Shown: in pieces, positions 19,191 through 36,195 of the stretch
Position numbering within the stretch: position 1 is the first letter of the stretch
How the letters are laid out: each line of letters starts with the position of its first letter
Source: Elainella saxicola E1
Lineage (GTDB): Bacteria; Cyanobacteriota; Cyanobacteriia; Elainellales; Elainellaceae
Direction: 5' to 3'
DNA length: 36,195 bases
Assembly: GCA_002796835.1 (NCBI GenBank)
Contig: LUGL01000029.1
Coordinates: 87,363-123,557, forward strand
Translations under genes and position numbers: made by a program
Notes under the pieces: model-generated
What the model was told of the DNA's origin: nothing
The model's input: only the letters and a program-made list of their open reading frames with translations
Database searches by the model: none

Positions 19191-19452
19191 TTGTAACCTT
19201 GCATCTAAATACTTTTGAATGAGCTGCGCTGCGCGATGCCTCAAGCCTCTATGCAATCGATTAAAAAATAGCGATTGAAGGCGCGATGTTCAGAAAATTC
19301 CACAACATCTTTACGAACATTTGTATTAGATTCTATCCTAGCCAAGATCATAGCGGATCCAAGCCTGCTGTATTGGAGAGCCTGTTTGGAGGAGAATCTA
19401 ACCCTTGTCTCGATGGATGTGATTGGGTTGAAGATTGAAGGTGAAACGTCTC

Positions 19453-20931
19453 ATGCCTGATTTGTCGGATGCTTCGAAAACCCAGATCGATCGGTCTCAA
19501 ACGCTGGATTGGGGCGATCGGTTGAAAGCAATTCGCAGCCATTTTTTGACGAAATGGATTGCCATTGCAGTTGTGATTTTGCTGATCGCCAGCTCTGTCC
19601 GGCATTGGATGCTGATGTCCACCGCGTTCGATCTGGGCATTTACGATCAGGTGGCCTATCTGCTGAGTCGCGGCAAGGAACCCATTTCTTCCTACTTGGG
19701 ATTCCACCACATGGGCAACCACACCGCCTATTCGTTCTATCTAATGGCGTTGCCCTATCTCATATTCCCCTCGGTTTACTGGCTGTTTGGGGTGCAGGCG
19801 GTTTGTTTGGCGCTGGGCGCATGGCCGACCTGGTTATTGGCAAAGCAAGCCGGACTTTCCAGCTCATTATCCATGGCGATGGCGGCGGTGTATTTGCTGC
19901 ATCCGCTAATTTTCAACGTCAATATGTTCGACTTCCACCCGGAAGTGATGGCCCTGCCCGCCCTGCTGTTCTGTATTTTGTTCGCCAGACAGGACCAGAA
20001 ATGGTGGTTTGTGGGGACTTTACTGTTTGCCCTGGGCTGCAAAGATGCGCTATCGGTAACGATCGCCGCCATGGGATTTTGGCTGCTGGTGTTTGAAAAG
20101 CGCCGATTCTATGGAGCCTTTGCTCTGATTGTCGGGGTGGCCTGGTTTTTACTGGCGACGCAGTGGATTATTCCTAGCCTCAGCGGCAGTGAGGCCGCAG
20201 CCGTGGGACGCTATGAGGCGTTGGGGGGCGATTCGGTGCTGGAAGTAGCGCTGAATCTGTTTCTGAAGCCCCATGTGCTGCTCAGCAGGCTAATCTATCC
20301 TGGCTCATTGCAATATCTGGCTTTGCTATTTGTGCCTTTTCTCTGGGGATTGTCGCCTCGGCATTTAGCTCCACTGGTCAGCACAATTCCAGTGATTTTG
20401 CTGAATATTCTCTCCTCAAATGGCGGACAGCGTGACCTGGTGCACCAATATTCCCTGCCGCTCCTGCCGTTCTTTCTGGTGGCAGTCATCGATTCGCTGG
20501 CCGATGGACAGGGCTTATTGCGACAGCGCCGCTGGATTATTCTCTGGGCGTTAGTCATTTTTGTCTCGCTGGCAAAATATGGCCGCTACTATTCGGAATA
20601 TGCGCAAAATCTCGATACCTGGCAGGCTAGCCAAGAAGCGATCGCCCTGATTCCCCGACATGAAGGCGGCGTCATTACCGACAATTGGCATGGGGCACAA
20701 CTCAGCCAGCGAGAGCATATTTTCCTGTTTCGTGGCAACGCTACCTTCAAAGAAGATCTACCTAAAGCCGACTATGTGCTGATCAACGTCAAGCATCCCT
20801 GGGACGACAATCAGGAATTCACGGATCGCATGTTCGATCGATTAAAGCGGCGTCCAGACCTGCAAATCAGCTATGAGCGAGATGGCGTTTATCTGTTTAC
20901 CCGGAAGGGAACTTCAGCCAACCAGCCATAA
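19453..20931 (+). CDS. DUF2079 polytopic membrane protein
   Basis: This protein of 492 residues has about ten membrane helices. It carries the DUF2079 signature: FDLGIYDQVAYLLSRGKEP, FHHMGNHTAYSFYLMALPY, NVNMFDFHPEVMALPALLFC, a GCKDALSVTIAAMG segment and a C-terminal soluble tail with ADYVLINVKHPW. The acidic and histidine residues in the first extracytoplasmic loops resemble GT-C glycosyltransferases such as PMT/ArnT, so use of a lipid-linked sugar is a fair guess, but no DUF2079 activity can be assigned. The frame is open from TTG 19435 and GTG 19441; ATG 19453 was chosen, with GAAGG 11 bases before it, and the choice is uncertain. It is divergent from the helicase and heads a run of three membrane proteins. 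Confidence 0.85.
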   Translation: MPDLSDASKTQIDRSQTLDWGDRLKAIRSHFLTKWIAIAVVILLIASSVRHWMLMSTAFDLGIYDQVAYLLSRGKEPISSYLGFHHMGNHTAYSFYLMALPYLIFPSVYWLFGVQAVCLALGAWPTWLLAKQAGLSSSLSMAMAAVYLLHPLIFNVNMFDFHPEVMALPALLFCILFARQDQKWWFVGTLLFALGCKDALSVTIAAMGFWLLVFEKRRFYGAFALIVGVAWFLLATQWIIPSLSGSEAAAVGRYEALGGDSVLEVALNLFLKPHVLLSRLIYPGSLQYLALLFVPFLWGLSPRHLAPLVSTIPVILLNILSSNGGQRDLVHQYSLPLLPFFLVAVIDSLADGQGLLRQRRWIILWALVIFVSLAKYGRYYSEYAQNLDTWQASQEAIALIPRHEGGVITDNWHGAQLSQREHIFLFRGNATFKEDLPKADYVLINVKHPWDDNQEFTDRMFDRLKRRPDLQISYERDGVYLFTRKGTSANQP

Positions 20932-21013
20932 TCAGACAGGGAACCAAACGTGATAGGATGCCGTTGCTGAAATAGCTGCCACCCCACGTTGAAGCGCAAG
21001 TAGAGAGCCATCT

Positions 21014-22750
21014 GTGAAAGACCTGCGGCAATTCTCCCCCTTCAAGGAAGAGCAGACCAACCGTCCCTCTCGCCGTTCAACCCTGTTTTGGTTTGGCCTC
21101 AGCCTGGTGTTCGCGCTGGTTTACGGAATTTTGGTCTGGAAGCAGGCATTTAGCAGCGAATTTGTCGTGCAGGATGATGCGCGGCAGCATGTGTTCTGGA
21201 TGCAGCGATTTGTCGATTCGTCGCTGTTTCCCCAGGATTGGATTGCTGACTATTTTCAGTCGGTTGCTCCCGCTGGCTATACATGGCTGTATCAGGTTGC
21301 CGCTCTGGGCATCAATCCGTTGTTGTTTAGCAAGCTGTTACCGCCGCTGTTGGGAGTGCTCAGCACGATCGCCAGTTTTGGTATTGTCCTGGAAATATTT
21401 CCGGTTCCAGCCGCCGCTTTTGTTTCGTCATTGCTGCTGAATCAGGTGCTCTGGATGCAGGATGATCTAGTATCCGCCACGCCGCGCGCCTTTATCTATC
21501 CATTGTTTTTGGGCTTCTGCTATTTTCTGCTGCGCCGATCGCTCCTCCCCTGTCTGGCGATGATTGTGTTGCAAGGCTTGTTTTATCCTCAGAGCGTGTT
21601 TCTGTCCGCCGGACTGTTGCCCTTTCAAATCTTACAGTGGCAGGGATGGCGGCCTCGATTATCGCGATCGGTTCAAGACTACTGGTTCTGCGGCCTGGGC
21701 TTGGCGGTGGCGATCGGGGTAATGTTGCCCTATGCCCTGTCGATTTCCCAATTTGATCCGGTGGTGACGCTGGCCGAAGCGCAGCAAATGCCGGAATTTC
21801 AAAAAGGAGGGCGATCGGCCTTTTTCAGCGACGACTTTTGGTGGTTTTGGGTGGAAGGTCCCCGGAGCGGTCTGTTGCCCTATCCTTCCCGTTTACCGAA
21901 GCTCTTGATTTTGGCATTATTGCTGCCCATTAGCCTACGGTTTCCCCAGCAGTTCCCCTTAGTGCAACGGATTCAGCCTGCGATCGGCCTTTTACCGCAG
22001 CTCATGCTGGTGTCGCTGTTTTGGTTTGGTGCAGCCCACGCCCTACTGTTCAAGCTGCATTTACCGAGTCGCTACACGCAGCATAGCTTCCGGTTAATTT
22101 TGAGTTGGGCCGCCGGGATTGCTATCATCATTGGCCTAGATGCCTTGCGCCAGTGGGTCAACCGAAATCCAAAACCCGTTAAACAGATTGTGGCGATCGG
22201 CCTCACGGGTTTAGTCGCAGCCGCACTAATCTTCTACCCCAGCTACAAACGTGCATTCCCGTACACTGGTTACATGGTGGGTACACAACCCGACCTCTAT
22301 CGATTCCTGGCTCAACAACCCAAAGAAATCCTAATCGCTTCCTTGTCTCCTGAAGCAGATAATTTGCCCAGCTTGACTCAGCGATCGGTTTACGTTTCGA
22401 AAGAATACGCAATTCCTTATCACATGGGCTATTACCGACCGTTGCAGCAGCGCATTGAGGCATTGATTGGGGCACAATACAGTCCCGGTCTGCCCAAACT
22501 GAAGCGATTCATTCGCGACACGGGTGTAGATTTCTGGTTGCTCGATCGCTCCGCCTTTACGCCTGAGTATGTAGAAGAAAGCTGGTTTAAGCAATATCCC
22601 AAAGCAGCCAAGCTAGCAGAGCGCAGCCTTAAAACCTCAGCAGGTCCGGCCTTGGCAAAAATGACTCGTCCGTGCGCCGTTTCCCAAAACACGGAATTTA
22701 TTTTGTTAGATGCCGCCTGTATTGTTGATCAGCCGAATCGGGAACCGTGA
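21014..22750 (+). CDS. Large polytopic membrane protein, GT-C-like
   Basis: I do not recognise a named family for this 578-residue protein. After a polar N-terminus (about 25 residues) come about ten hydrophobic helices. The first outer loop has VVQDDARQHVFWMQRFVD followed by LFPQDWIADYFQSVAPAGY; the paired acidic residues after helix 1 are the pattern of GT-C membrane glycosyltransferases that use lipid-phosphate sugars. The C-terminal 160 residues are soluble and probably extracytoplasmic (RSVYVSKEYAIPYHMGYY, GVDFWLLDRSAFTPEYVEE). The start is GTG 21014; no upstream Met is in frame. Its stop overlaps the start of the GT39-like gene, so the two are co-translated. A role in surface glycan assembly is inferred from the fold pattern and neighbours. 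Confidence 0.8.
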   Translation: MKDLRQFSPFKEEQTNRPSRRSTLFWFGLSLVFALVYGILVWKQAFSSEFVVQDDARQHVFWMQRFVDSSLFPQDWIADYFQSVAPAGYTWLYQVAALGINPLLFSKLLPPLLGVLSTIASFGIVLEIFPVPAAAFVSSLLLNQVLWMQDDLVSATPRAFIYPLFLGFCYFLLRRSLLPCLAMIVLQGLFYPQSVFLSAGLLPFQILQWQGWRPRLSRSVQDYWFCGLGLAVAIGVMLPYALSISQFDPVVTLAEAQQMPEFQKGGRSAFFSDDFWWFWVEGPRSGLLPYPSRLPKLLILALLLPISLRFPQQFPLVQRIQPAIGLLPQLMLVSLFWFGAAHALLFKLHLPSRYTQHSFRLILSWAAGIAIIIGLDALRQWVNRNPKPVKQIVAIGLTGLVAAALIFYPSYKRAFPYTGYMVGTQPDLYRFLAQQPKEILIASLSPEADNLPSLTQRSVYVSKEYAIPYHMGYYRPLQQRIEALIGAQYSPGLPKLKRFIRDTGVDFWLLDRSAFTPEYVEESWFKQYPKAAKLAERSLKTSAGPALAKMTRPCAVSQNTEFILLDAACIVDQPNREP

Positions 22751-24495
22751 TGAGCCGCCCTCAAAATTCAATCTTCATTCCCCCACTATTTACTCGTTTG
22801 GGTCAATCGGGCATGGTTTTAGCGATCGTCCTGCTGTTGGGCTTCGGCTTACGATTGTGGCATCTGGACCTCAAACCCCTCTGGCTGGATGAAGTGCTAA
22901 CGGCCATTTTCACGATGGGGCGTGGCTATCAGGATGTGCCGCTGAATCAATTTTTTCCGCTGACTGCCCTCGATCAGGTGTTCACCGTGCAGCCCGGTTT
23001 AAGCTGTGCCGACATTACGCAGCGCATTACTACTGAGTCGGTGCATCCCCCTGTCTTTTTTTGCCTGCTCTATCGCTGGATGAGTTGGCTAAATCCGCAA
23101 AACTGGGTTTGGGCAATGCGATTTCTGCCTGCTCTGTTCGGCGTAGGGGCGATCGCAGCGATGTATTGGCTGAATCGAGTCGCGTTTTCAACTGCTGCTG
23201 GATTGCGGGCTGCTGCTCTGATGGCCGTTTCACCCTTCACGGTCTATCTCTCTCAGGAAGCTCGCCACTACACGCTGCCCATGTTGCTGATTACGTTGAC
23301 GCTGGCATTCCTCGTTCAGATGCAGCAGGATGTAATCCTTCAGAAACGATTACGTCCTCTCGTTTGGACAAGCTGGGTGCTGCTCAACAGTTTGGCGCTC
23401 TACACCCACTACTTTTGTCTGCTATCCCTAATCGCCCAAATTGCCGCTTTGACAGGTTGGTTGCTCTGGAACCATCGATCGATCGCCCGCCGCTACTGGA
23501 TAGGCTGGGGATTGGCCATTAGCGCGATCGGCCTCAGCTATCTACCCTGGCTCCCAACAATGATCAGCCACTTTAGCCGCCCCGAAACCGACTGGTTGAT
23601 TCCCTACAAACCAGACTGGCTCGATCGCTTAGAACCACTTTACCAAACGCTGGTCGGTTGGACGCTGATGGTGATTGCCCTGCCGGTTGAAGGTCAGCCC
23701 AACTGGATTGTGATTCCGGTGACGCTGCTCATCATTGGCTTTATGTTATGGTTCGTCTGGCAGCTCAGAACAGGCTGGCAAAAACATTGGCAAAATATCT
23801 CCAATCGCCCTGGCACGCTTTTGATTGCAGGATTTACCGCCTGTATTCTGCTGCAATTTTTTGCGATCGTCTATCTTCTCAACAAAGATCTAACAGTCGT
23901 TCCCCGCTACAACTTCATCTACTATCCCAGCGTCTGTGCGCTCCTCGGAGCCTGCTTTACGTCCCCCCGCGCTCATACCCATCCACTGATTCACCCCTTC
24001 ACCTTGACTCTCATCGCTGGTCTACTCAGCAGTATTTTTGTCGTCAATGGTCTGGTATTCCAAAAGTCTTATCATCCCGATCAGGTCGCCCAAAACATGG
24101 CCTTTGAGCCAGAAAAGCCATTAGCGGTCGTTGTGAATTATCGATCGCCCCAGGAAGTTGCTCTCGGGCTCAGCTTTGCTTTGGCACTTCGCCAACAATA
24201 TCCGCCCGAAACGATCGATCAGCTGGTGCGGTTTGCGTTTGTCGATCGATCGGAGGGATACAGCGAAGCCTGGAAAAAGCTCAGCCAGATAGAACAGTCT
24301 TTAATACCGCCGCTGAATCTTTGGGTAGTAGCATCCCCTGGTATGCGGACAAAGGATTATCCGCAACAGCTCACCTTAAATGCACCATCCACACCCGGTA
24401 CTCGTCCCAAAATGCGGTGTTTGGTGGGCGATCGGTTGTACCGACAGGGATTTCCTTATCAACTTTATCGGTGTAGATCGTTGGATCGGAAATAA
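22750..24495 (+). CDS. GT39/PMT-like membrane glycosyltransferase
   Basis: This 581-residue protein has the layout of ArnT/PMT-type GT-C enzymes: helix 1 (LAIVLLLGFGLRLWHLD), then LKPLWLDEVLTAIF with the catalytic-type Asp-Glu pair, then TESVHPPVFFCLLYRWMSW with the HPP motif, AMRFLPALFGVGAIAAMYW, AALMAVSPFTVYLSQEARHY and further helices to about residue 430, with a soluble C-terminal domain. Such enzymes move a sugar from polyprenyl-phosphate to an acceptor outside the membrane. Donor and acceptor are unknown. The ATG at 22750 overlaps the TGA of the previous gene (GTG at 22747 is the alternative). The last 15 bases, including the stop codon, are duplicated exactly just after the gene. Confidence 0.87.
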   Translation: MSRPQNSIFIPPLFTRLGQSGMVLAIVLLLGFGLRLWHLDLKPLWLDEVLTAIFTMGRGYQDVPLNQFFPLTALDQVFTVQPGLSCADITQRITTESVHPPVFFCLLYRWMSWLNPQNWVWAMRFLPALFGVGAIAAMYWLNRVAFSTAAGLRAAALMAVSPFTVYLSQEARHYTLPMLLITLTLAFLVQMQQDVILQKRLRPLVWTSWVLLNSLALYTHYFCLLSLIAQIAALTGWLLWNHRSIARRYWIGWGLAISAIGLSYLPWLPTMISHFSRPETDWLIPYKPDWLDRLEPLYQTLVGWTLMVIALPVEGQPNWIVIPVTLLIIGFMLWFVWQLRTGWQKHWQNISNRPGTLLIAGFTACILLQFFAIVYLLNKDLTVVPRYNFIYYPSVCALLGACFTSPRAHTHPLIHPFTLTLIAGLLSSIFVVNGLVFQKSYHPDQVAQNMAFEPEKPLAVVVNYRSPQEVALGLSFALALRQQYPPETIDQLVRFAFVDRSEGYSEAWKKLSQIEQSLIPPLNLWVVASPGMRTKDYPQQLTLNAPSTPGTRPKMRCLVGDRLYRQGFPYQLYRCRSLDRK

Positions 24496-24582: not shown

Positions 24583-25350
24583 TTACAAGACATACTTTGA
24601 GCGAATTCTATCAGCCCAAGCTTGATTCCTTTCTCCGCCAATCTTCTGAGTAGCAGCCATCGATAGAGCAACGTTGATCTGCACATCTTCTCCCAGAAAA
24701 CTCAAGATTTTCTTGATCACTCCTTCAACATTTTCTAAAACCTCTTCATAGGTAATTCTCAGAGGTTCAACGGAATAGAATGAGAAGAAACGTTCCCACT
24801 GCGATCGTTCATACAATAATCGATCAACATGATTAAGAATAGCTGTTTCGTCATACTCACACTCAGGTTCAGCAATTCCGCTCTCAGCTACATGCCACAC
24901 CCCTGACGATCGGGCCACATGGGCAGAGATTGCTTGAAGGATAATATCTTGTCTTGTCAAATAAATAAATTTGACTGGATTTATTGATCTACCAATTATT
25001 TGTTGATTGATCAGGGGTTCAAAATCCATAAAGCAGGTCTTCATACCGAATATGCCATTTTCACAAACTTGGCAATGACGCAATATGTTGATGTATTGAG
25101 AAATATCTGACACACGATACTTCTCTAGATAGCTTTGCATCACATCGCGCGGATTAATGTATTCTTCTGGCATTCCCAAAACACCAGTCTCTTTAAGCAA
25201 GGAACATAGCATTGTGCTCCCTGAACGCTCTGTAAAACAAATAATATAATTTTTTCTACTAATCGATCGCTGTTCTAAATTTTGATGACAATCCTGTAAA
25301 ACTGTAGAAAAGATATCAACTTTCCCTGATTCAGAATCAACAAAAATCAT
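24583..25350 (-). CDS. Stf0-type sulfotransferase
   Basis: This 255-residue protein probably transfers sulfate from PAPS to a carbohydrate. The 5'-phosphosulfate loop is NYIICFTERSGSTMLCSLL (residues about 34-52), followed by GVLGMPEEYINP, the PVKFIYLTRQDIILQAISAHVARSSGVWH segment that carries the 3'-phosphate contacts, and the late LRITYEEVLEN block. This order matches the Stf0 family, named for mycobacterial trehalose 2-sulfotransferase. The ATG at 25350 has GAGAAG just upstream. The gene is the last of the minus-strand glycan cluster and converges on the GT39-like gene. It lies in the AT-rich block. The acceptor is inferred to be the glycan made by the neighbouring enzymes. Confidence 0.87.
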   Translation of the reverse strand: MIFVDSESGKVDIFSTVLQDCHQNLEQRSISRKNYIICFTERSGSTMLCSLLKETGVLGMPEEYINPRDVMQSYLEKYRVSDISQYINILRHCQVCENGIFGMKTCFMDFEPLINQQIIGRSINPVKFIYLTRQDIILQAISAHVARSSGVWHVAESGIAEPECEYDETAILNHVDRLLYERSQWERFFSFYSVEPLRITYEEVLENVEGVIKKILSFLGEDVQINVALSMAATQKIGGERNQAWADRIRSKYVL

Positions 25351-25394
25351 CGTTTCTTCTCAAATGCAATAAAGTTCAACTATACTAAGCCTGA

Positions 25395-26108
25395 TTAGAT
25401 TTTCCGACTGATTAGCACTTCAATATATTCTGCTTCAATACCAAGCGAAACATCATGAGTATAAACCATAAAGGTATACAAACCACTATTTTTAAATATA
25501 AAATCGCAGATATCATAACCCCAATTCGTTACAACTAGAGAACCCTGCTCACTAATCGGATTGCCGTGGTATTCAGGTTCCTTGAGATATAAAGTTTCAC
25601 CTCCTGATTGGACCGCACAAGTTTGAGATGGTTGATTTTTATTGACAAGAGGAACAGTAAATATATGAGCTCCACCAGATTTCAGTGTCCGCGCAATTTC
25701 TCCAAAAGCCTTAGCAGGATCAAATACATGTTCCATAACATCTTGAGTAATAACTAAATCAAAACTTTCATCTGGAAAAGTTTGATTCTCTAGATTTTCA
25801 TTTTTCCAACCATTAGAGTCACACCAACCAAGCGGTAGATGAGGAAAAAATTGCGTTGCCTGATAATTTTTACAATTATTTTTCAATTTAAAGCTAGCAC
25901 CACGATTAGCAGGCGAAGATTCATGAATAGCAAGTTCTGCCCAGTTAGGATAGAATTTTTCTATACAATAGAATAAAGCTCGTTCTCGTGGAATAGAACG
26001 GCAGTTTTCGCATATGTAATGATCTCTTAACCACTCATTATGAGAGGAGAAAGTGACATAATTATCGCACGTACAACAATATCCTGTATTACTAATAATT
26101 GCATTCAT
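25395..26108 (-). CDS. SAM-dependent methyltransferase with N-terminal zinc ribbon
   Basis: This protein of 237 residues begins with a likely zinc ribbon, in which CCTC near the start is followed by CENC some 25 residues later (IICENCRSIPRERAL-like region, actual text HYICENCRSIPRERALFYC). A class I methyltransferase fold follows: the AIHESSPANRG segment in place of motif I, TFPDESFDLVITQDVMEHVFDP (motif II, with the DVMEH signature) and ARTLKSGGAHIFTVPLV. The motif I glycine-rich loop is weak. Proteins of this type occur in glycan clusters and are usually listed as methyltransferase type 11. The chosen ATG at 26108 excludes 16 hydrophobic residues encoded upstream (frame open from 26156). 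The gene is 44 bases upstream of the sulfotransferase gene. The acceptor is unknown, perhaps a sugar. Confidence 0.82.
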   Translation of the reverse strand: MNAIISNTGYCCTCDNYVTFSSHNEWLRDHYICENCRSIPRERALFYCIEKFYPNWAELAIHESSPANRGASFKLKNNCKNYQATQFFPHLPLGWCDSNGWKNENLENQTFPDESFDLVITQDVMEHVFDPAKAFGEIARTLKSGGAHIFTVPLVNKNQPSQTCAVQSGGETLYLKEPEYHGNPISEQGSLVVTNWGYDICDFIFKNSGLYTFMVYTHDVSLGIEAEYIEVLISRKI

Positions 26109-26168
26109 TATGATCAATAACAACCCAATTGCTTCATTTATTACGCATTGCCTCAAGAGAAATTACTA

Positions 26169-27047
26169 TCAACTTGCAATTTGTTGAAAATCTTCCAATC
26201 CATACCAACGAATAAACTGTTCAAAAAAACCAGGCCAATTCAGTTTAGAAGGAGCTAATGGATTGGGCGTCCATTGAAAGTTTGCGGCCGAAAAGTAATT
26301 AGTTAACAAGCTACTTGATTCTTGTGGACCGATCGCATGCAAAGATTCAAAGGTATTGTCCCCATGAAACCGATAATAGTAGAGGTCTTGATCCAGGAAA
26401 AAAGGTTCAGTGTGAATAAGCGATCGGAGTAGGAAGTCCCAGTCATGACAATATCGGTAGTTATTAAATAAGCCTACGCGATTGTACAACGACCTCGTTA
26501 ATACAAAATTTCCCGTTGAGATGCTGACATTAAATGTCAAACATGCAAAACCAACTGTTGGCAATCTCTTGATATTTTGCTGTGCCCTAAAATAGATATT
26601 TGCGCGTGGATTAAAATATGTAAGATAGCTGTTCTTTGAATCAATATATTGCACACGACTAAATACAAAATCTTGCCCTCGTTGAATCTGATTGACCATC
26701 AACTGAATTCGATCAGGGTGATACATATCATCTGAGTTCAATAGAGCGATAATATCTCCGTTGGAGTGATTGATTCCATAATTAATTGCATTGTGAGCAC
26801 CCTGATTATGAGTGAAAGCATAAAACCTAGTTCGCTTCGGAAATCTAGCTTTCCAAGTATTACAATGAATTAGCCGATCGATCTCTGCAGCGGAACCATC
26901 AGGGGAGCAATCATCTAAAATAATAACCTCTATATTCGTATAAGTTTGGTCAGCTACAGATTTTAAGCACTGCTCCAGAAAAGGCTTGTGGTTATAACAG
27001 GGAATAATTACAGAGACAAGAGGGTTGGGAGACAAGTTAGATATCAT
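26169..27047 (-). CDS. Family 2 glycosyltransferase
   Basis: This GT-A-fold enzyme of 292 residues has the family 2 layout: PLVSVIIPCYNHKPFLEQCL at the start, YTNIEVIILDDCSPDGSA, NQGAHNAINYGINHSNGDII, and the metal/nucleotide-sugar DXD-type motif LLNSDDMYHPDR near residue 95. The later CHDWDFLLRSL segment supplies the acidic base region. There is no membrane helix, so it acts in the cytoplasm on lipid- or protein-linked acceptors. ATG 27047 was preferred over TTG 27074, which would overlap the stop codon of the WbsX-like gene by four bases; the tight junction shows translation as one operon in either case. The sugar is not predictable. Confidence 0.92.
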   Translation of the reverse strand: MISNLSPNPLVSVIIPCYNHKPFLEQCLKSVADQTYTNIEVIILDDCSPDGSAAEIDRLIHCNTWKARFPKRTRFYAFTHNQGAHNAINYGINHSNGDIIALLNSDDMYHPDRIQLMVNQIQRGQDFVFSRVQYIDSKNSYLTYFNPRANIYFRAQQNIKRLPTVGFACLTFNVSISTGNFVLTRSLYNRVGLFNNYRYCHDWDFLLRSLIHTEPFFLDQDLYYYRFHGDNTFESLHAIGPQESSSLLTNYFSAANFQWTPNPLAPSKLNWPGFFEQFIRWYGLEDFQQIAS

Positions 27048-27070
27048 TGTTTCGCACTCTAAATTTACTT

Positions 27071-29467
27071 TCAAAACCGCTCAAAAAAATGATGGACAGA
27101 ATATTCTTGCAGAAGTTTTTGTTTAGCTTTGATATATTCTTCCTTCCCATTTATCACAGCCTCTAACTTTCTCAACAATTCATAACGTTGCTCATGGTCC
27201 TCTAATTGCAATGATCTAATCTGATCAATCAGCGATTGTTCGTCATTACTAGAAAAGCTAGAAGACAAACTGATGTCACTATTGCTGATTTCTAAAATTT
27301 CTAAATGCACTGTACCCAACTCTATGTACCGGCCATTCTGAAGCATAACCCATAGACTCAGTTCAGGCTTCAAAAATTTTTGCCTGCTAAGATCTATTTG
27401 GGCGTAGAAACCACATTTCTCTGCATCTGATCGTGATAATTGGTTGGCAACATCTAGACGACTTAAATAAACAGGAAGTTGAACAACCAATTCGTGATCA
27501 CATCTAACCTCAAATGTACAGATAGTAGAAGAAAAACTAAATACCCAGCCTTGAAGCTCGATTGAGCCTAGATTAATTTTTTGATGATTATAGAGTGAAT
27601 CCAAGTTCCAGAAAATATCAGTTGGTGAGTTAGCATTAGAAATCCCAACTACTGTTCCAACTTTTTGAGAGAGAAGCTTTTGCATCAGAGTAAAACTTCT
27701 GTCTATTATTTTGATTCTCATCTCTAACTGTTCAAGTAGCTCGTATAAATGAGCATGTTGATTGAAAGGAAAATGTTTCAATAGATTGATCACCGTACCC
27801 CAAGTGTGGGTTCCGCGTAAAGCTTGATGGGTCGCAACTAAAAAATCATGCCCATGTTTCTGGTCAGGCTCAAGATGAGCACCTTCCGCCCATTCATTCC
27901 AGGCATTGATGAAAACAAGTTGTTCGTCACCGGTATAACGTTGACGGGTTTTTTCAATTGCACCCCGTAGCCAAAATTCATAATCTTGAGGATTAGAATT
28001 GAGGAAAGCATGAGCAGCATTTTTACGACGAGCAGTATTATCCCAAGAAGGCATCGCTGATAAAAACACTTTTGTTTCTGGAACTCTTGCTGATACGGCA
28101 TTAATCGCAGCCGCTTTATAATTGTAGAACTTTCCAGTAAAGTCTGAAGTCAGTACTCCAGCAGGTGATATTTCAGGGGCAGGGATTTCATGAGGAGCAA
28201 ATTGTACAGCAGCATCAAATCCTAGTTGAGTTGGATCAGTTAATCCTGAGAGCAATCCTGAAAAGCATGTAAGTGTCACAGCAAGATAAACTTCACCAAT
28301 TCCATGTTTTCGGAAACATTCTCTCCATTGTTGTATTGTATGCAAAACATCTGGAAAGATATCGGCTCGATAAATGATCAACAATGGAAGACCATTGATC
28401 CGGATATAGCGTTCATCCTGCAGAATCGGCACAACACTTTCTGCAAAAGCTTGGTTCTGATCATCCGAGAAATCTTGGGCAATTAGAACTTCATCTTCTT
28501 GCCCATCCCATCTTCGAGTCCAATTTTCATTTGCCCAACAAATGCAAAATGGGAAATCAGGCTTTTTGCTCGCTAATACATCATCCAAAGGTCGATTCAG
28601 TAACCGTTTCCCAGCAAACCAGTAATAGTAATAGCAAAAACCATGGATTCCATAACTACGGGCTAAATTAGCTTGCATCTCCCTAACTTCCGCAAGCCGC
28701 AGATCGTAAAAACCTAGATCGGCAGGAAGATGGGGTTGGTAATGACCGTCAAACAAAGGCTGTGCCTTACTAACATTTGTCCATTCTGTAAACCCTTTTC
28801 CCCACCATCGATCGTTTTCTGGAATTGGATGAAACTGAGGTAAATAGAAAGCAATCAGACGGGTTTCTGAGTGTGTTTTTAGATTATCTACTTCACTTGG
28901 TTGATGCCCATTCTCCGAAGACGAACTGCCGGATACTCGATCCTTGCCCGAGAGAGGCTTGATTTCCTGGCAAGGCTGAGTCGGAATTCGATATAGTCGT
29001 CCCTCCCATTTACCATGATCCAAATAATGCTCGACCGCCTGATAGTATCTATATTGCTTACTTGTAAATCTCACCCCTAAATCAGGATTAAGTTCTAGAT
29101 ATTGTTCAACGCTAAAATCTTCTGGCAAATCTAATTGTTTAATCTCAAAATATTCTTCTAAGGCAGATTGGCTAGGAAAACGCCCTTCTAGCTTCCCAAA
29201 AACCATCCAATGTTCATGAGCTAATTCATAGCTTAAGTCACTCAAATCTTCATAATACTCAATATAAAATTGCCAATCAAAGCTAGTATCTGAAAATGAC
29301 GAAGGTTCCTGAAAAGAGGGCTCTTGAGATTTAGTAAAAGGAACAATTCTGCCAAGTTTCTCTTTGAGGGAAAACCGCTTAAGTCGAGTTTCAGAAAAAT
29401 TAATGATTTTGGAGTCAGAATTTGCTTCCATAGAATTGTTTGTAGTTTTCACCCTAAAAATTTTCAT
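27071..29467 (-). CDS. WbsX/GH99-like glycan enzyme with N-terminal repeats and C-terminal beta domain
   Basis: This 798-residue protein has three parts. Residues about 55-165 hold two copies of a motif of the form F-D-x3-Y-x3-Y-x-D-L ... H-W-x3-G-x2-E-G-R (FDWQFYIEYYEDLSDLSYE, EHWMVFGKLEGRFP; then SVEQYLELNPDLG and HYLDHGKWEGRLY). Residues about 205-560 form the WbsX/GH99-like TIM barrel: RLIAFYLPQFHPIPENDRWWG, GFTEWTNVSKAQPLF, FCICWANENWTRRWDG and FINAWNEWAEGAHLEPD. Residues about 635-760 are a beta-rich module (LQGWVFSFS, VRCDHELVVQLPV, CGFYAQIDLSRQ). WbsX proteins belong to O-antigen and surface polysaccharide clusters; whether they cut or transfer glycans is not settled. The start ATG overlaps the stop of the TPR-GT2 gene by one base. 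The gene is AT-rich compared with the 3' half of the window. Confidence 0.88.
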   Translation of the reverse strand: MKIFRVKTTNNSMEANSDSKIINFSETRLKRFSLKEKLGRIVPFTKSQEPSFQEPSSFSDTSFDWQFYIEYYEDLSDLSYELAHEHWMVFGKLEGRFPSQSALEEYFEIKQLDLPEDFSVEQYLELNPDLGVRFTSKQYRYYQAVEHYLDHGKWEGRLYRIPTQPCQEIKPLSGKDRVSGSSSSENGHQPSEVDNLKTHSETRLIAFYLPQFHPIPENDRWWGKGFTEWTNVSKAQPLFDGHYQPHLPADLGFYDLRLAEVREMQANLARSYGIHGFCYYYYWFAGKRLLNRPLDDVLASKKPDFPFCICWANENWTRRWDGQEDEVLIAQDFSDDQNQAFAESVVPILQDERYIRINGLPLLIIYRADIFPDVLHTIQQWRECFRKHGIGEVYLAVTLTCFSGLLSGLTDPTQLGFDAAVQFAPHEIPAPEISPAGVLTSDFTGKFYNYKAAAINAVSARVPETKVFLSAMPSWDNTARRKNAAHAFLNSNPQDYEFWLRGAIEKTRQRYTGDEQLVFINAWNEWAEGAHLEPDQKHGHDFLVATHQALRGTHTWGTVINLLKHFPFNQHAHLYELLEQLEMRIKIIDRSFTLMQKLLSQKVGTVVGISNANSPTDIFWNLDSLYNHQKINLGSIELQGWVFSFSSTICTFEVRCDHELVVQLPVYLSRLDVANQLSRSDAEKCGFYAQIDLSRQKFLKPELSLWVMLQNGRYIELGTVHLEILEISNSDISLSSSFSSNDEQSLIDQIRSLQLEDHEQRYELLRKLEAVINGKEEYIKAKQKLLQEYSVHHFFERF

Positions 29468-32400
29468 TACGCTCGAATGCTGTAATCTTCTCTCTCCAAT
29501 GAGAGGTGTGGACTATAGCAAGGATCCTGCTGGAGTAAATCACCCCACTTCTGCTTCATGAATTCTCGCTCCTGCCCAAACCGCTGCTGCTTATCCCAAC
29601 TATCTTCTACACCCCGACTTTTAGACTCATGATGATAAAGCTGGACATGAGGTAGCATCAGGTTTTTATATCCCAACTGCCGAACCTTCAGACAAAAATC
29701 AACATCATTAAAAGCAACCGCTAATTCCTCATCAAAGCCACCCACTTCCTCAAAGATGGAGCGCCGACACATCATGCAAGCAGCCGTTACTGCTGAGTAG
29801 TTATTAATCGAGACTAACTGAGAGAAATAACCGTAATCATCTCTCGAAAAATATTTGTGACTATGTCCGGCAACACCACCGATCCCCAAAATCACTCCAG
29901 CATGTTGGACCGTGTCATCAGGATAAAGCAGCAATGTACCAACTACGCCGATCGAAGATCGCTGTGCCTGTTCCACCATTGCTTCGATCCAGTCTGGTGT
30001 GATCACCTCGACATCGTTATTGAGGAATAATAAATAGTCCCCTGATGCTTCAGTAACGGCAAGATTGTTAATCGTGGAATAGTTGAACGGAATATTGAGG
30101 GAATAGCATTTCAATCGCTCTGGCTCTTGTCGTTCCCACCGATCGATTACGTGAAGTGTCTCAATCTCGTCACTGCCATTGTCAATTAGAACGACTTCAT
30201 AGTTTGGGTAGGTTGTTTGGTCAAAAATCGATTGCAGGCATTTATCAAGCGTGGTTCCTAGATTTCGCGTTGGAATAATGATGCTAACACGCCGATAATG
30301 AGTAACTTCATAATGGATAATATACACTCCCCGCGCTGTTGCATGAGTCACGATCTCACGAACAGGTTCTCCTCGCCGATCGCAAGCCTCCAGTAAAGCC
30401 CGCTTTGCAGCCTCTTCAGCGTAGGGTTTTACGAACTGATTGTTGGATGTCGAAGCTGCATGATCGCGCCAGTGATACAGAACTTTCGGAATATGGAAAA
30501 TCCGATCGGTCTGCTCGGTCAACCGCAGAACCAGATCGTAATCTTGACTCCCTTCATAGCCCACCCGGAAACCGCCGATCGCTTCAACCAATTGCCGACG
30601 ATAAACGCCAAGATGGCAGGTATACATCCGCGACAGAAAGGAATCTGGACACCAATTGGGTTTAAAGAAAGGCAGGACTCGTTTTCCTTGTAGATTCAGC
30701 TTGTCTTCGTCCGAATAAATCATGTCGGCTTCAGGGTGCTGATTCAACAGAGACACCACCTCATAGAGCGCTTCTGGTGCGAGCCGATCGTCGTGATCAA
30801 ACAGCGCCACAAATTCCCCGGTTGCCAATGCTAGTGCAGAATTAGAAGCAGCTGAAATATGGCCATTTTCAGATCGAAATACGACCCGAATTCGATCGTC
30901 TTGTTGAGTCAACTGATTCAGCAGGTCCAGCACTTCCAAATCTGCCGACGCATCATCCGCAATGCAAAGCTGCCAATGTGGATAAACCTGGTCAAGCACC
31001 GACTGCACAGCAGCCTCTAAAAAGGCGATCGGTGGATTGTACACCGGCATCATAATGCTAATAACCGGCTGATAAGACCAATCTGCAATACTAGTCGCCA
31101 TTTGCCGCAAATCTTCTGCGGTGGGAGTATGCTTCGCCATCCAGCGATCGTAAGCGGCTTCATCCTGCATCTGAGGTCGACGAGCTTTGACCTGTAGCTG
31201 CAAGAGATGTTTCAACTTGGCAATGATTTCCACAGCTTCGGGTCGCATCTGTCGGGCAATTTGGCAACAGGCCAGCGCCTCATCCCATCTTTCCTGACCC
31301 ATCAACGCATCAGTCAATCCCAAATACAGATCGAGTGAATCGGGCTGTAGCTCTAGCGCTTTGTAATAGTTCTCTGGATCCGCCGGATTGCGCTGAATTT
31401 CTTGAGTGTAAAATGTCAAGGCATTATTGCGATCGATCACAGCACGTCGCTGTAATGCATCTGCTAAATGGGCAGCAGCATAGGGCAGATCAGGCTGTAA
31501 ATTCAAAGCAGTCCGGTAAGCTTCGATCGCTCCATCCCAATCCTGTAAGCGAACCAGTGCTTCCCCCAAGTTATAGTGAGACCAGGGAAAGCTGGGATTG
31601 AGCACGATCGCAGTTCGGAGCGGATTCACGGCATCTTGCCACTGTTCCATCTGGATCAGCGCGTCGGCTAGATTGTTGTGCGACCAGGAAAAGGTTGGTT
31701 CTCGCTGAATTGCCTGCTGATAGGCAGGAATGGCAGCAGACCAGTACTGCAATCGACTATAGACTTCAGCGAGTTGGTGCCAATGTTGTGCCACTTGCGG
31801 CTGCAATTCGACTAATTTCTGGCTGTAGACCAGCGCCTCATCCCACTGTTTCAATTGATAACAGCAGGTTCGCAAACCCTCGATCGCTTCAATCCGCTCA
31901 CTCTCTTGGTTCAGCACTGGACGATAGGCATCCGCAGCAAGTTGCCAATCCTTTAGCGTGACTAACGCATGAGCCAGTTGAACATAGAGATCCATACAGT
32001 CAGGACATTGCTGAATACCCTGCTGATAATAGTAAATTGCAGTAACAGACTCATTTTGCTTGAATAACAGAGAACCTATCCCTAAATAAGCAGCAGCCAG
32101 CGTTGGATCCTGTCCAATCGCCCGATCGTAGCATTCGCGAGCCAAGTCCAATTGATTGAGCTGGAATAACCGATCGGCCAGTCGGCAATTGTCGATCGCA
32201 CTAGCCCAATCGGGCTGTAGTCGAAATGCTTCATACAGACAGGTCGCCGCAGATAAATGCTCGCCAAGCTGATGCCACACCTGCGCCAGCTTCCAATAGG
32301 CTCCTGCGAAGTTGGGATTGAGTTGAATGGCCGCTTGATAGGATTGAACAGCATCAGACAAGCGGTTTTGGTCGGCATAAAGGCTGGCTAAGCGGGCATG

Positions 32401-33195
32401 CACTTCTGCTAAATCAGGCTTGAGCGTCAGCGCTTTTTGATAAATTTGCTCAGCTTCTACTAACTGCTGCTGTCCGTGCAGCGATCGGCCCAAAATCAAG
32501 TAAGCAGTCGAAGCTTCTGGTTCCAATTGGGAAAGCGCCATTTGACAGGCCGCGATCGCATCTTGCCATTCTGCTGCATTGCAGCTCACCATCGCCTGCT
32601 GGAGATGAAAGCTTGCCTGCTCAAACCAAGGCATTGGCTCTGCGCTAACTTTAGGCCGAGCAGCAGACTGCGATTGGTCTTGCGAGGCACTAGTACTGAG
32701 TTGAGGTGCAGTTCGATCGGTTTGCTGCGCTAATTCAATGGCTTGACGGTAATAATTTGCCGATTCCTCTAGGTCGCCCTGCTGAGACAAAACCTCTGCT
32801 AAATATTGATGGAGTTCAGCATTTTGTGAATCCAGCTGAATTGCTCGCCGGTAATAAGCTGCCGCACTGTTCCAATCTTTTTGCTGAGCACAGGCATATC
32901 CTTGTTGAATTAAATCTTTCAATCGACTAGAGTCGGCCTCATCCCCAGCCTTCAGAGCGATCGGCTCAGCCGACAATTGTGAGTTTGACAAAGATTCATC
33001 GGTCGCATCACTTGGCGCATCACTGGATATATCACTTGGGCGATCGGACAACGCTACCAAATTCCAGCTCAGCAGACGATTTAAAAATCCCTTCCGTCGC
33101 TCTTTGCGAAAACGCGGTTTGGCAGCATTGGGATAGGGGGCAATAGACATTGATGAATCTACACCGAGTGGGGGCTCGCGAAAGAAGTTCAACAT
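29467..33195 (-). CDS. TPR protein with two family 2 glycosyltransferase domains
   Basis: This protein of 1242 residues is a fusion. After a basic N-terminus (about 20-40: FRKERRKGFLNRLLSWN) and a Ser/Asp-rich linker, residues about 85-660 carry a long tetratricopeptide array (repeated LHQYLAEVLSQQGDLEESANYY-like units with A-x-Y and P-x3 helix ends). Two GT2 domains follow: about 705-950 (ISIMMPVYNPP, LCIADDASADLE, LFDHDDRLAPEAL) and about 965-1200 (SIIIPTRNLGTTLDKCLQSI, VLIDNGSDE, LFLNNDVEVITPDW, GGFDEELAVAFNDVDFC). Both domains keep DXD-type motifs, so both may be active and could add two sugars in turn. The frame is open from TTG 33228; ATG 33195 is preferred, but no ribosome binding site is evident at either, and ATG 33150 is possible. 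It is cytoplasmic. The TPR array probably binds protein partners or the acceptor. Confidence 0.92.
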   Translation of the reverse strand: MLNFFREPPLGVDSSMSIAPYPNAAKPRFRKERRKGFLNRLLSWNLVALSDRPSDISSDAPSDATDESLSNSQLSAEPIALKAGDEADSSRLKDLIQQGYACAQQKDWNSAAAYYRRAIQLDSQNAELHQYLAEVLSQQGDLEESANYYRQAIELAQQTDRTAPQLSTSASQDQSQSAARPKVSAEPMPWFEQASFHLQQAMVSCNAAEWQDAIAACQMALSQLEPEASTAYLILGRSLHGQQQLVEAEQIYQKALTLKPDLAEVHARLASLYADQNRLSDAVQSYQAAIQLNPNFAGAYWKLAQVWHQLGEHLSAATCLYEAFRLQPDWASAIDNCRLADRLFQLNQLDLARECYDRAIGQDPTLAAAYLGIGSLLFKQNESVTAIYYYQQGIQQCPDCMDLYVQLAHALVTLKDWQLAADAYRPVLNQESERIEAIEGLRTCCYQLKQWDEALVYSQKLVELQPQVAQHWHQLAEVYSRLQYWSAAIPAYQQAIQREPTFSWSHNNLADALIQMEQWQDAVNPLRTAIVLNPSFPWSHYNLGEALVRLQDWDGAIEAYRTALNLQPDLPYAAAHLADALQRRAVIDRNNALTFYTQEIQRNPADPENYYKALELQPDSLDLYLGLTDALMGQERWDEALACCQIARQMRPEAVEIIAKLKHLLQLQVKARRPQMQDEAAYDRWMAKHTPTAEDLRQMATSIADWSYQPVISIMMPVYNPPIAFLEAAVQSVLDQVYPHWQLCIADDASADLEVLDLLNQLTQQDDRIRVVFRSENGHISAASNSALALATGEFVALFDHDDRLAPEALYEVVSLLNQHPEADMIYSDEDKLNLQGKRVLPFFKPNWCPDSFLSRMYTCHLGVYRRQLVEAIGGFRVGYEGSQDYDLVLRLTEQTDRIFHIPKVLYHWRDHAASTSNNQFVKPYAEEAAKRALLEACDRRGEPVREIVTHATARGVYIIHYEVTHYRRVSIIIPTRNLGTTLDKCLQSIFDQTTYPNYEVVLIDNGSDEIETLHVIDRWERQEPERLKCYSLNIPFNYSTINNLAVTEASGDYLLFLNNDVEVITPDWIEAMVEQAQRSSIGVVGTLLLYPDDTVQHAGVILGIGGVAGHSHKYFSRDDYGYFSQLVSINNYSAVTAACMMCRRSIFEEVGGFDEELAVAFNDVDFCLKVRQLGYKNLMLPHVQLYHHESKSRGVEDSWDKQQRFGQEREFMKQKWGDLLQQDPCYSPHLSLEREDYSIRA

Positions 33196-33293
33196 GGTTG
33201 GGAGATGGTAGGAGACACAGTCACGCAATCAAAACGAAAAGATCGAATTCGATCCTGCCGGAAAACCTAATATACTTTTCCAAAACAAAAATA

Positions 33294-35345
33294 TTATGAT
33301 CGAGTTAAAATTTGAGAATTGGAATTTGAACTAGAAGGATACAGAGTTTTCTGTGGTTTTGCAATCGGTTTAACCGGTAATTTTAGTTTGCGAACGATGA
33401 CTTGATAACCTTGATAGACGATCGCTAAGTGATGTTTGGCAATATCCAAAAAAGCATCAATGCCGCGATAGGTTTCCTGACCTGGATGCGTGGGATCAAT
33501 CCATTGATAATCATCAAAAATCATCAACCCTCCCGGCTTCAGCAATCGCCAAGCCAACATGGCATCCTGTCGCACATGATCTGCTAAATGACAGCCATCA
33601 ATATAAATGAAATCGTAAGTTTCGGACGATAAAGTTCTTAAAACTGCATGAGAATCTCCAACGAGCTTGATCAACTTATGGGCAGATCCGGATTGGGCAA
33701 TATTCAGTTCAAAACTTTCTTGGAAAAACAGATCGATACAGGTCAATTTCGCTTGGGGATGGGTTAAGACGTGATCTAATAACCAGCAGGCCGACATGCC
33801 CTCATAGCTGCCAATTTCCAAGGCATGAACGTTGGGATAGTTCGTAAACGGTTTGAGATAACTTTCCCAGGTGTCAATGTTGTGGGTAAACCAATCATGC
33901 GTGAACTGATAGTTGCGATAAGCAGCCGATTGCCAACCCCGCATCACAATCGCATTTTGATGGAGTTCGATCGCTTCGGTTAATTCACCCTGATCAGCTA
34001 ATAAATTTCCTAAATGGGAATAGAGCCAGTGATAGCTAGGATTCTGCTGAATTTCCTGACGATGCCAGCTAATTTCTTGCTCTAACCGCTGATATTCAGT
34101 AATGGTCTGCTGGAGCTGCGATCGAAGCTGCTGATCTTGCGTGCGTTGGACCAATGCCAAACTGTAGAAAATAATCGCCGCTGCATATTGTTTGAATTGC
34201 ACAAACCGGGTCGCGAGTTGAATGTAAAACTCTGGAGTCCGGTAGGCAGATTTTAACGGGATCGATCGACGATAGGCTTGAATGGTGGGTTTCATCCCCA
34301 TATGACGCACCTTACGCCGCAGCGCACAGCCCAAACGAGGATAAAAAGCCCCCAGATCCGCCTGAATTTGCAATGCTGTTAAAAATGCTGCGATCGCCTT
34401 ATCCCATTGCTTTTGGTGCAGCAAAACTTGTCCTAAATGATAATAGGTCCAGGCAAAATCAGGATTAAGCTTAATCGCGCGGCACAGCATTGAAAAAGCT
34501 GCCTGCCATTTTTGATGTTTCAGCAACGCATAGCCCAAATTGTTATAGGCCCAGGACAGATCCGGATTCATTTGGGCAGCGCGGTAACAAACAGGCAAGG
34601 CCTTTTCCCACTCTCGCAGCTTAATCAGCATTTCGCCCAGACTGAAATAGGCAGCCGCAAACTTGGGATTGAGCTGGACCGATCGCAAATAGCAGGTGGC
34701 AGCCAATTTGGATTTATCTGCCTGTTCGGCCAATTTACCTAACCCATAGTAAGACTCAGCATGTTGAGGATTGAGCTGAAGCACTTTCTGAAAGGCAGCA
34801 GCAGCAGCACGCCAATTCTGCTGATAGGCTTCCGCAACGGCTAAATTGTAGTAAGCCTCATAAAAATCAGGACGAAGCTGAATAGCACGCTGGTAGCAGT
34901 CGATCGCTTCTTTCGTTTTATCTAATTGGATTAATGCATTTCCCAAAATCAACTGATTGCTAGGCGTCGCCCAGGCGGGCTTCAACACCACTGCACGATA
35001 GCGATAGGCAATTTCTTCATGACGTTGACCCAGGTGGGCATAGATGCCTGCCAGACTGCGATGGGCTTCGGCATAGTTTGGATCGAGCTTTAAGGTTTGC
35101 TGATAGGCAGCCAGGGCTTTTTGCCAGTTATGTTGTTTGGAATAAAGTGCGCCAAAGCCAGCATAAATTTCGATCGAATTGGGCTGAGGATCCAGCGATC
35201 GACTATGCCAGATAATCGCTTCTCGAAACCAGCCAATGCTCTGCAACAAATTGCCCAAACTGCGACAAGCCATAGAAAAATCGCCCTTCTGCAAAAGAGC
35301 CTGCTCACAAGTAGCGATCGCATGGTCAAGCTGAACAGCAAACAT
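33294..35345 (-). CDS. TPR protein fused to class I methyltransferase
   Basis: This protein of 683 residues has about ten tetratricopeptide repeats (residues about 1-455, with regular units such as AYQQTLKLDPNYAEAHRSLA, CYQRAIQLRPDFYEAYYNLA and AFQKVLQLNPQHAESYYGLG) followed by a SAM-binding domain (about 500-665). The latter shows VHALEIGSYEGMSACWLLD (motif I), AKLTCIDLFF, YDFIYIDGCHLADHVRQDA and LLKPGGLMIFDDYQWID, matching the Methyltransf_24 type in which the substrate is often a sugar or small molecule. A chain of TPRs before this domain is unusual outside cyanobacteria and similar bacteria. The frame is open from TTG 35390; ATG 35345 was chosen. A 7-bp perfect inverted repeat (35346-35376) sits immediately before that ATG. 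The TPR-GT2 gene starts about 100 bases downstream. Confidence 0.9.
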   Translation of the reverse strand: MFAVQLDHAIATCEQALLQKGDFSMACRSLGNLLQSIGWFREAIIWHSRSLDPQPNSIEIYAGFGALYSKQHNWQKALAAYQQTLKLDPNYAEAHRSLAGIYAHLGQRHEEIAYRYRAVVLKPAWATPSNQLILGNALIQLDKTKEAIDCYQRAIQLRPDFYEAYYNLAVAEAYQQNWRAAAAAFQKVLQLNPQHAESYYGLGKLAEQADKSKLAATCYLRSVQLNPKFAAAYFSLGEMLIKLREWEKALPVCYRAAQMNPDLSWAYNNLGYALLKHQKWQAAFSMLCRAIKLNPDFAWTYYHLGQVLLHQKQWDKAIAAFLTALQIQADLGAFYPRLGCALRRKVRHMGMKPTIQAYRRSIPLKSAYRTPEFYIQLATRFVQFKQYAAAIIFYSLALVQRTQDQQLRSQLQQTITEYQRLEQEISWHRQEIQQNPSYHWLYSHLGNLLADQGELTEAIELHQNAIVMRGWQSAAYRNYQFTHDWFTHNIDTWESYLKPFTNYPNVHALEIGSYEGMSACWLLDHVLTHPQAKLTCIDLFFQESFELNIAQSGSAHKLIKLVGDSHAVLRTLSSETYDFIYIDGCHLADHVRQDAMLAWRLLKPGGLMIFDDYQWIDPTHPGQETYRGIDAFLDIAKHHLAIVYQGYQVIVRKLKLPVKPIAKPQKTLYPSSSNSNSQILTRS

Positions 35346-35376
35346 GGATGTTGTCAAATCAAGGGGCCAAACATCC
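35346..35376. repeat. Inverted repeat immediately before TPR-methyltransferase start
   Basis: GGATGTT (35346-35352) and AACATCC (35370-35376) are exact inverted copies around 17 bases. The inner arm touches the ATG at 35345, so a hairpin there would affect initiation, or a protein could bind the two arms. If the upstream TTG is the true start, the repeat is coding. Confidence 0.35.
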
Positions 35377-35452
35377 TGGGAGGATAACAAGATTTTCAGG
35401 AAACGCTTCTAGATTTATGTAAAGTTTTTATAAGGTTGTTGAAATTCAGAGC

Positions 35453-35464
35453 TGCTCATGAGCA
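35453..35464. promoter_or_regulatory. Perfect 12-bp palindrome TGCTCATGAGCA in glycan-cluster spacer
   Basis: TGCTCATGAGCA is a perfect palindrome, 36 bases after the GT61-like stop and 108 bases before the TPR-methyltransferase ATG. It has the size of a dimeric repressor site. No known regulator is matched. Confidence 0.3.
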
Positions 35465-35500
35465 ATTACGCCAAAAGTCAGGATGCAGAGAATTGAGCAT

Positions 35501-36195
35501 TTAGACCAATCCGGCCTGGGTCAAAGCAACCTCCAATGTTTTAGTGTCCAACCAAATATCTTCCATCAAAGGACTGGGATACATGAGGCGATGGATGAAA
35601 GCACAGGAAAACTCTGAACCGATCGCAAAATAATGATTCAACCCTAACTGCTGACTAATTTGCCAGTAATAGTGACGAATATAGCTGGGGGTCATCAACT
35701 CAATCACCGTCGTCCCAGGTTTGCAGAAAATCAAGTTCGTCAATCCACCGCCATGGGGTGCAACAATCACTTTGGCCTGAGCAAACAGAGCAATTTGTTC
35801 CGCTACGGACAGCGTTTCCAGCTCCACAACTTTAAAGTCCAAGGCTTGGAGGCATGCCACTACTTCCGCTTCGTTCAATAACCGTCGATGATGGGCGTTA
35901 GCCCGACTGATATAGATCCGTTCAGCTTGATGTCTTCGCTGGGACTCAGAAGTGGCGATCGGCAAAAACTGCTGCCTTAAAAAGGCTAATGCCCAGGGTT
36001 CTAGCCAGCCCAAATGACCGGGAAACGAAGGCACAATCAGCGTCTCTGCTTGAATCACCGGATGGCGATCGGCTGCCAGAACTTTGTGGGATGGAATTTC
36101 CAAATAGTCCAACATTTCTTGCTGAAAGGCTGCTTGACCCTGATGCACCCAAAACCAATCCAGATCAGACCAGCGCAACCCACTGCGGCGCAACA
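35501..36195 (-). CDS. GT61/DUF563 glycosyltransferase, 5' partial
   Basis: The minus-strand frame is open from its stop at 35501 to the window edge, giving the last 231 residues of a longer protein; the TTG near 36193 is not taken as the start. The sequence has the GT61/DUF563 pattern: the RIYISRANAHHRRLLNEAEV block, then LSVAEQIALFAQAKVIVAPHGGGLTNLIFCKPGTTVIELMTP, the conserved HGGGLTN loop and IELMTP strand of the family, and HYYWQISQQLGLNHY. GT61 members transfer xylose, GlcNAc or other sugars to glycans or proteins. In cyanobacteria such domains are often fused to TPR arrays, and the missing N-terminus may be one. The gene heads the visible part of the minus-strand glycan cluster. Confidence 0.87.
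   Translation of the reverse strand, partial: LRRSGLRWSDLDWFWVHQGQAAFQQEMLDYLEIPSHKVLAADRHPVIQAETLIVPSFPGHLGWLEPWALAFLRQQFLPIATSESQRRHQAERIYISRANAHHRRLLNEAEVVACLQALDFKVVELETLSVAEQIALFAQAKVIVAPHGGGLTNLIFCKPGTTVIELMTPSYIRHYYWQISQQLGLNHYFAIGSEFSCAFIHRLMYPSPLMEDIWLDTKTLEVALTQAGLV

Follow-up and report, generated by a model that had tools for sequence, protein, structure and literature searches.

The stretch of DNA analysed here, 36,195 nucleotides of Elainella saxicola E1 (positions 87363-123557 of contig C156, in a genome of 8.7 Mb; hereafter, the window), carries at its far end a compact array of genes for glycan enzymes, some of them fused to tetratricopeptide repeats (TPRs). Open reading frame (ORF) calling and Pfam searches placed seven minus-strand ORFs in unbroken succession at 24583-36195 (Table 1). 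An earlier note on this DNA, made from the letters alone, had proposed just such a run of seven genes, and the ORF calls bore it out, with the named domains matched in Pfam. The tight linkage that it described was likewise confirmed by the coordinates, the genes overlapping by 1 base (at 29467) and 4 bases (27071-27074) or lying 12, 44, 65 and 110 bases apart. Two of its labels call for comment. The ORF described as GT61-like does contain a GT61 domain, but is the window-cut tail of a longer TPR-GT61 gene; and the methyltransferase said to bear a zinc ribbon shows the CxxC..CxxC motif in its sequence, although Pfam reported no zinc-ribbon family for it.

The remainder of the TPR-GT61 gene lies past the window edge, and 24 bases ahead of that gene ends a gene for an RTX calcium-binding protein. 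Each of the two has its frame broken at a single 'n' (L002:4559 in the TPR-GT61 gene and L002:7056 in the RTX gene; L002 and the other L numbers are surveyed loci), and both positions are probably assembly joints. Further out, beyond a plus-strand ORF of pentapeptide-repeat look, stands a type I secretion cassette of HlyD, ABC exporter and PpiC genes. The cassette also adjoins the RTX gene in L038, L039 and L045, and in L037, where the end of the contig truncates it; Wzc-like ORFs were seen near it in L039 and L045. One type I cassette beside every island of RTX and TPR genes was considered and rejected, the flanks of L041, L042, L044 and L047 being occupied by housekeeping-like genes (Pfam). 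The earlier note had suspected from the TPR arrays a docked enzyme complex, or even protein glycosylation; the RTX gene and the type I cassette just past the window support this hunch and sharpen it. The RTX protein encoded just outside the window is probably the protein partner of the enzymes.

Table 1. Genes of the array in the window and of the adjoining region of contig C156. Positions without prefix are those of the window.
Feature	Position	Strand	Evidence
Stf0-type sulfotransferase	24583..25350	-	PF09037 E 1.6e-33
Methyltransferase, N-terminal CxxC..CxxC motif	25395..26156	-	Methyltransf_11 E 2e-11; TTG start as called
GT2 glycosyltransferase	26169..27074	-	Pfam GT2 E 6.1e-36
WbsX-family protein	27071..29467	-	PF14307 E 3e-136; no TPR found
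TPR + two GT2 domains	29467..33228	-	GT2 E 1.7e-49; 13 TPR units by in-house model
TPR-methyltransferase	33294..35390	-	Methyltransf_24 E 3.8e-23; 11 TPR units by in-house model
TPR-GT61 glycosyltransferase, C-terminal part	35501..36195	-	PF04577 E 5.9e-29; rest of gene past window edge
Full TPR-GT61 gene	L002:3864-6297 (C156 about 122863-125296)	-	Pfam TPR matches in upstream piece; 8 TPR units there by in-house model
RTX calcium-binding protein, ~300 amino acids	L002:6322 to about 7216 (C156 about 125321-126215)	-	PF00353 E 9.4e-32
HlyD	C156:127783-129357		Pfam
ABC exporter with C39-like and cNMP-binding domains	C156:129452-132436		Pfam
PpiC	C156:132433-133200		Pfam
Wzc-like and Wza-like genes	L002:15584-19516, about 8-12 kb beyond RTX gene		Pfam

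The constancy of the RTX gene as a neighbour was examined in a survey of related loci, in which ORFs were called mechanically. GT61 relatives were searched in 117 genomes, of which 64 gave a match, and 80 of the listed stretches were taken; a further 80 (L116-L195) were the best of 299 from a clade-profile search of named genomes, so that this set is enriched in the clade, while the loci outside the clade were drawn from the 117-genome search. Of these 160 loci, 133 had at least 1.2 kb of upstream sequence (27 were dropped), and 122 remained after removal of identical GT61 tails. A locus was assigned to the clade when its GT61 scored at least 212 bits against that of the window, and an RTX ORF was counted when it lay on the same strand within 4 kb upstream. 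By these definitions, an RTX ORF precedes the GT61 gene in 61 of the 72 unique clade loci, at a median distance of 213 bases, and in 0 of the 50 loci outside the clade (Fisher P = 1.6e-23, to be read with the relatedness of the loci in mind, since the counts are not independent). The 72 loci form a single clade with a FastTree support of 100, and the RTX label requires at least 4 changes on the 122-tip tree. The RTX-linked relatives occur in Trichodesmium, Okeania, Microcoleus, Laspinema, Tychonema, Phormidium and others. Reading of the loci, as distinct from a count, showed that the genes upstream of the RTX/TPR-GT61 pair vary from locus to locus; the pair has therefore been retained while its surroundings changed. 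Variants of the arrangement were also met. Two RTX genes precede the TPR-GT61 gene in L075, L137, L183, L194 and L195; TPR enzymes are kept, but no RTX ORF was found within 4 kb upstream, in L146, L147, L154, L155, L174 and L179 (Planktothrix and two Oscillatoriales); and L154 has an RTX ORF of 919 amino acids at the far end of its stretch. RTX linkage as a trait of all TPR-GT61 proteins was rejected, as none of 31 relatives with a long N-terminus outside the clade has it. At least three TPRs were found on 28 of 55 non-clade GT61 ORFs, among L060-L115, again with no RTX neighbour.

Within the clade, the TPR arrays extend well beyond the GT61 enzyme. At least three TPRs were present on 87 of the 92 clade GT61 ORFs. 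The same was true of 127 of the 204 ORFs that follow on the same strand and measure 200 amino acids or more, and of 8 of the 249 remaining ORFs in those stretches; the corresponding figures for control loci outside the clade were 5/100 (downstream) and 4/346 (other). The enzyme domains that bear TPRs in one locus or another are of six types, namely GT61, Methyltransf_24, GT2-GT2, GT4, Sulfotransfer_1 and WbsX. Of the 92 clade loci, 25 have a sulfotransferase-like ORF, as do 2 of the 55 others, one of which (L176) had come via the clade profile. Thus, the sulfo and methyl decoration suggested by the earlier note finds its enzymes recurring in the relatives, while the chemistry itself we infer.

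The protein features are in keeping with a cytoplasmic site of action. With a hydrophobic segment defined as 19 residues of mean hydropathy of at least 1.8, none was found in the 61 linked RTX proteins (18 of which lack a clear start), the 92 clade GT61 proteins or the 136 other TPR proteins of the surveyed loci. The linked RTX proteins are mostly 210-460 amino acids long; the one of L177, at 631 amino acids, has a repetitive Ser/Thr/Pro-rich head of mucin-like look. In the HG..LTN stretch of the GT61 proteins, the H, G, L, T and N are invariant in 24 aligned relatives. When the clade GT61 profile was compared with the PDB, the only GT61 enzymes matched were POMGNT2 (1.7e-9) and EOGT (4.2e-8), both of which modify proteins. 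In most clade members, the GT61 domain follows a CxGLNCxPCL motif that may be a metal knuckle. Structure models were examined for L038, a relative from a genus-mate genome. In the model of its TPR-GT61 protein, which has a mean predicted local distance difference test score (pLDDT) of 80.7, residues 5-371 form a TPR superhelix, and linkers of low confidence connect this to the GT61 domain. The TPR part found its best match in the TPR domain of OGT (Foldseek 7.4e-16; 1w3b Z 24.7, root-mean-square deviation 11.5, 332 aligned), a likeness that is tempered, being partly generic, because TPR proteins of the BBSome followed close behind with a Z of 22.8. Fold searches were run with the whole protein, and the matches listed were almost exclusively TPR proteins. 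The RTX protein of L038 was modelled as a single continuous roll (pLDDT 94.9) that matches known RTX domains.

Taken together, these features lead us to propose, with a probability of roughly 60%, that the operon couples the gene for an RTX calcium-binding protein with genes for TPR-docked enzymes, which would decorate that protein in the cytoplasm before its export. The RTX protein would be made unfolded in the cytoplasm, where each TPR enzyme, through its TPR superhelix, may grip the RTX protein itself or a shared complex upon it. TPR-GT61, as the putative chain starter, would attach the first sugar to the RTX protein; the chain would be lengthened by TPR-GT2-GT2, WbsX and GT2, and capped by the two methyltransferases and Stf0. 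We infer the linkage, the identity of the sugars and the order of these steps. The decorated protein would then leave through a type I exporter, presumably that of the PpiC/ABC/HlyD cassette next door in the window genome. RTX rolls fold when they encounter calcium outside the cell, and the exported product would form a glycosylated rod, stiffened by calcium, at the cell surface or within the sheath.

The foremost alternative is that the TPR enzymes form a scaffolded complex for a lipid-linked or free surface polysaccharide, the RTX protein being a co-regulated anchor or lectin and not an acceptor. Polysaccharide clusters commonly include WbsX and GT2 enzymes, and the Wzc-like and Wza-like genes about 8-12 kb beyond the RTX gene would suit such a pathway. 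The earlier note had seen no flippase or polymerase in the window, and had advised a search beyond position 36195. The profiles PF01943 (Wzx) and PF04932 (Wzy_C), which matched at 7 and 5 places in the genome respectively, had no match on contig C156; genome-wide searches were confined to these two, leaving aside other Wzx, Wzy and ABC-export families. Its statement thus holds for these two families. A membrane protein at 21014-22750 found no Pfam match whatever, and the region beyond the window, free of both profiles, does hold a type I ABC exporter and the Wzc-like and Wza-like genes. That unmatched protein is one of three membrane proteins encoded on the plus strand at 19435-24495, convergent to the Stf0 gene, the others being a DUF2079 protein and one that is weakly PMT_2-like. 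A divergent polymerase could be concealed among the three; the two large ones and the DUF2079 protein are perhaps candidate polyprenol-dependent glycosyltransferases. Ten further window genes put to Pfam have unrelated functions (UvrD helicase, transporters, kinases and so on), and no flippase or polymerase family appeared among the subset of flanking genes so analysed. Because the TPR enzymes are linked to an RTX gene and are free of hydrophobic segments, we favour a protein-bound glycan made in the cytoplasm over a free surface glycan, and regard the surface-polysaccharide explanation as unlikely.

In a second alternative, the TPR arrays dock on some other common partner, such as each other or the exporter, and the enzymes glycosylate several RTX proteins across the genome, the linked one included. 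The question was approached from the RTX side by a profile scan of 40 genomes, in which at most 58 candidates were scored per genome, and a cut-off of E 1e-47 left 38 RTX genes; a gene was called linked when at least one of the next two genes on the same strand had three or more TPRs. Profile rank was used for the counts because a regular expression for the RTX head overlooked true members; by that expression, 17 of 20 genes with the motif were linked as against 5 of 18 without. By rank, linkage is centred on one RTX subfamily, with 20 of the 23 best-scoring genes linked but only 2 of the remaining 15, one of these two (L226) spuriously; the profile was, however, built from linked genes. The genome of the window has three islands: the window locus, L049 (RTX, TPR-GT61 and TPR-methyltransferases) and L197 (RTX, TPR-methyltransferase, a TPR-WbsX-GT4 protein of 1772 amino acids, GT2, and an Stf0 that is a 62% identical copy of that in the window). 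Since L197 has the RTX gene and TPR enzymes with no GT61, the RTX protein is the constant partner there. The abundance of RTX repeats in the genome, and eight clade loci, four of them named Planktothrix, that have the enzymes with no RTX ORF found within 4 kb, would both fit several RTX targets; the concentration on one subfamily argues otherwise and makes this alternative rather improbable. That the RTX neighbourhood reflects chance, or common descent without functional coupling, is very improbable indeed: the linked loci do fall in a single clade on which the label seldom changes, and RTX repeats abound, but many named genera retain the pair while its upstream neighbours vary, L049 and L197 repeat the RTX-before-TPR-enzymes order in the same genome, and none of the 50 non-clade GT61 loci has RTX.

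Several observations nonetheless weigh against cytoplasmic decoration of the RTX protein by TPR-docked enzymes. Eleven of the 72 clade loci failed the RTX test. Three of them can be accounted for (the RTX ORF of L058 was overlooked by the motif, L172 has an RTX tail, and the genome of L051 has an RTX island elsewhere, L209), while at the other eight (L146, L147, L154, L155, L157, L169, L174 and L179) the 4 kb upstream yielded no RTX ORF. The window genome is very rich in RTX repeats, with 185 profile matches, of which one gene may hold several. On the RTX side, 13 of the 20 linked best genes sat in the search profile, and of the 10 among the best 23 that lay outside it 7 were linked; three of the best 23 (L196, L210 and L212) lack a TPR neighbour. 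In the window operon itself, WbsX, GT2, the second methyltransferase and Stf0 are all without TPRs by Pfam, and the second methyltransferase, as called from its TTG, has an N-terminal hydrophobic segment with a mean hydropathy of 2.05. No clear acceptor site was seen, and the RTX heads show no more than a weak excess of Ser, Thr and Pro (p 0.018, linked members being included in the control set). Adjacency of the cassette is limited to the window locus, L037, L038, L039 and L045, and 96 of the 117 genomes encode close relatives of its ABC protein. The support as a whole is genomic and structural.

Each of these enzyme families is known singly. OGT and SPINDLY, whose catalytic family is GT41, resemble TPR-GT61 in joining a TPR superhelix to a glycosyltransferase, but the catalytic domain of TPR-GT61 is GT61 and the gene is part of a multi-enzyme operon headed by an RTX gene. 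EOGT and POMGNT2 share the GT61 catalytic family, but are enzymes of the eukaryotic secretory pathway and are not known to carry TPR arrays. The Actinobacillus ngt enzyme also belongs to GT41. In the excerpted account of the ngt/agt system, N-glycosylation is cytoplasmic and soluble, as in the line proposed here, and fragments of RTX calcium-binding domains are modified, although the usual targets are adhesins and the excerpts mention no TPR enzymes (PMC6318927). Among glycoproteins, oscillin of Phormidium uncinatum and SwmA are described, in the portion of the source available, as glycosylated cyanobacterial surface RTX proteins, oscillin having 646 residues and 46 repeats and being tied to gliding (PMC3034196). 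Compared by description and not by sequence, the linked RTX protein of L177 nears this length with its 631 amino acids, but has only about 20 matches to the repeat motif. The genome of Phormidium sp. KS has no close oscillin homologue, according to the part of its report available (PMC4284469). Among the matches listed in open-licence PMC texts, neither enzymes for glycosylated cyanobacterial RTX proteins such as oscillin and SwmA, nor an operon that opens with an RTX gene and continues with TPR-fused glycan enzymes, was described. The combination of an RTX protein with TPR-fused glycan enzymes suggests an undescribed form of TPR-docked cytoplasmic protein glycosylation. The locus offers a candidate enzyme set, acceptor and exporter together, and makes the question of RTX glycosylation directly testable. 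A broader possibility, which we entertain tentatively, is that such a line is widespread among filamentous cyanobacteria and that modifying enzymes of all classes, down to the sulfotransferase, have gained TPR arrays of their own to serve a single exported RTX rod; this line would be the glycosylation machinery of oscillin-type glycoproteins.

A close parallel is FlmG of Caulobacter, whose TPR domain binds flagellin, which is glycosylated in the cytoplasm and then exported, as stated in the excerpted text (PMC7591256). By analogy, the TPR arrays of the RTX operon may serve as a shared grip, FlmG being the experimental precedent for TPRs gripping an exported protein. TPRs and the cytoplasmic O-glycosylation of an exported protein would thus be common to both, the latter being presumed for the RTX operon. 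They differ in that the FlmG catalytic domain is likened, in the same excerpts, to the GT-B superfamily and its acceptor is flagellin (PMC7591256), whereas the RTX operon uses a GT61 domain, has the RTX protein as its presumed acceptor, and carries TPRs on further enzymes. If the proposal is true, GT61 would join the TPR-docked protein glycosyltransferases, and sulfation and methylation would enter such a line.

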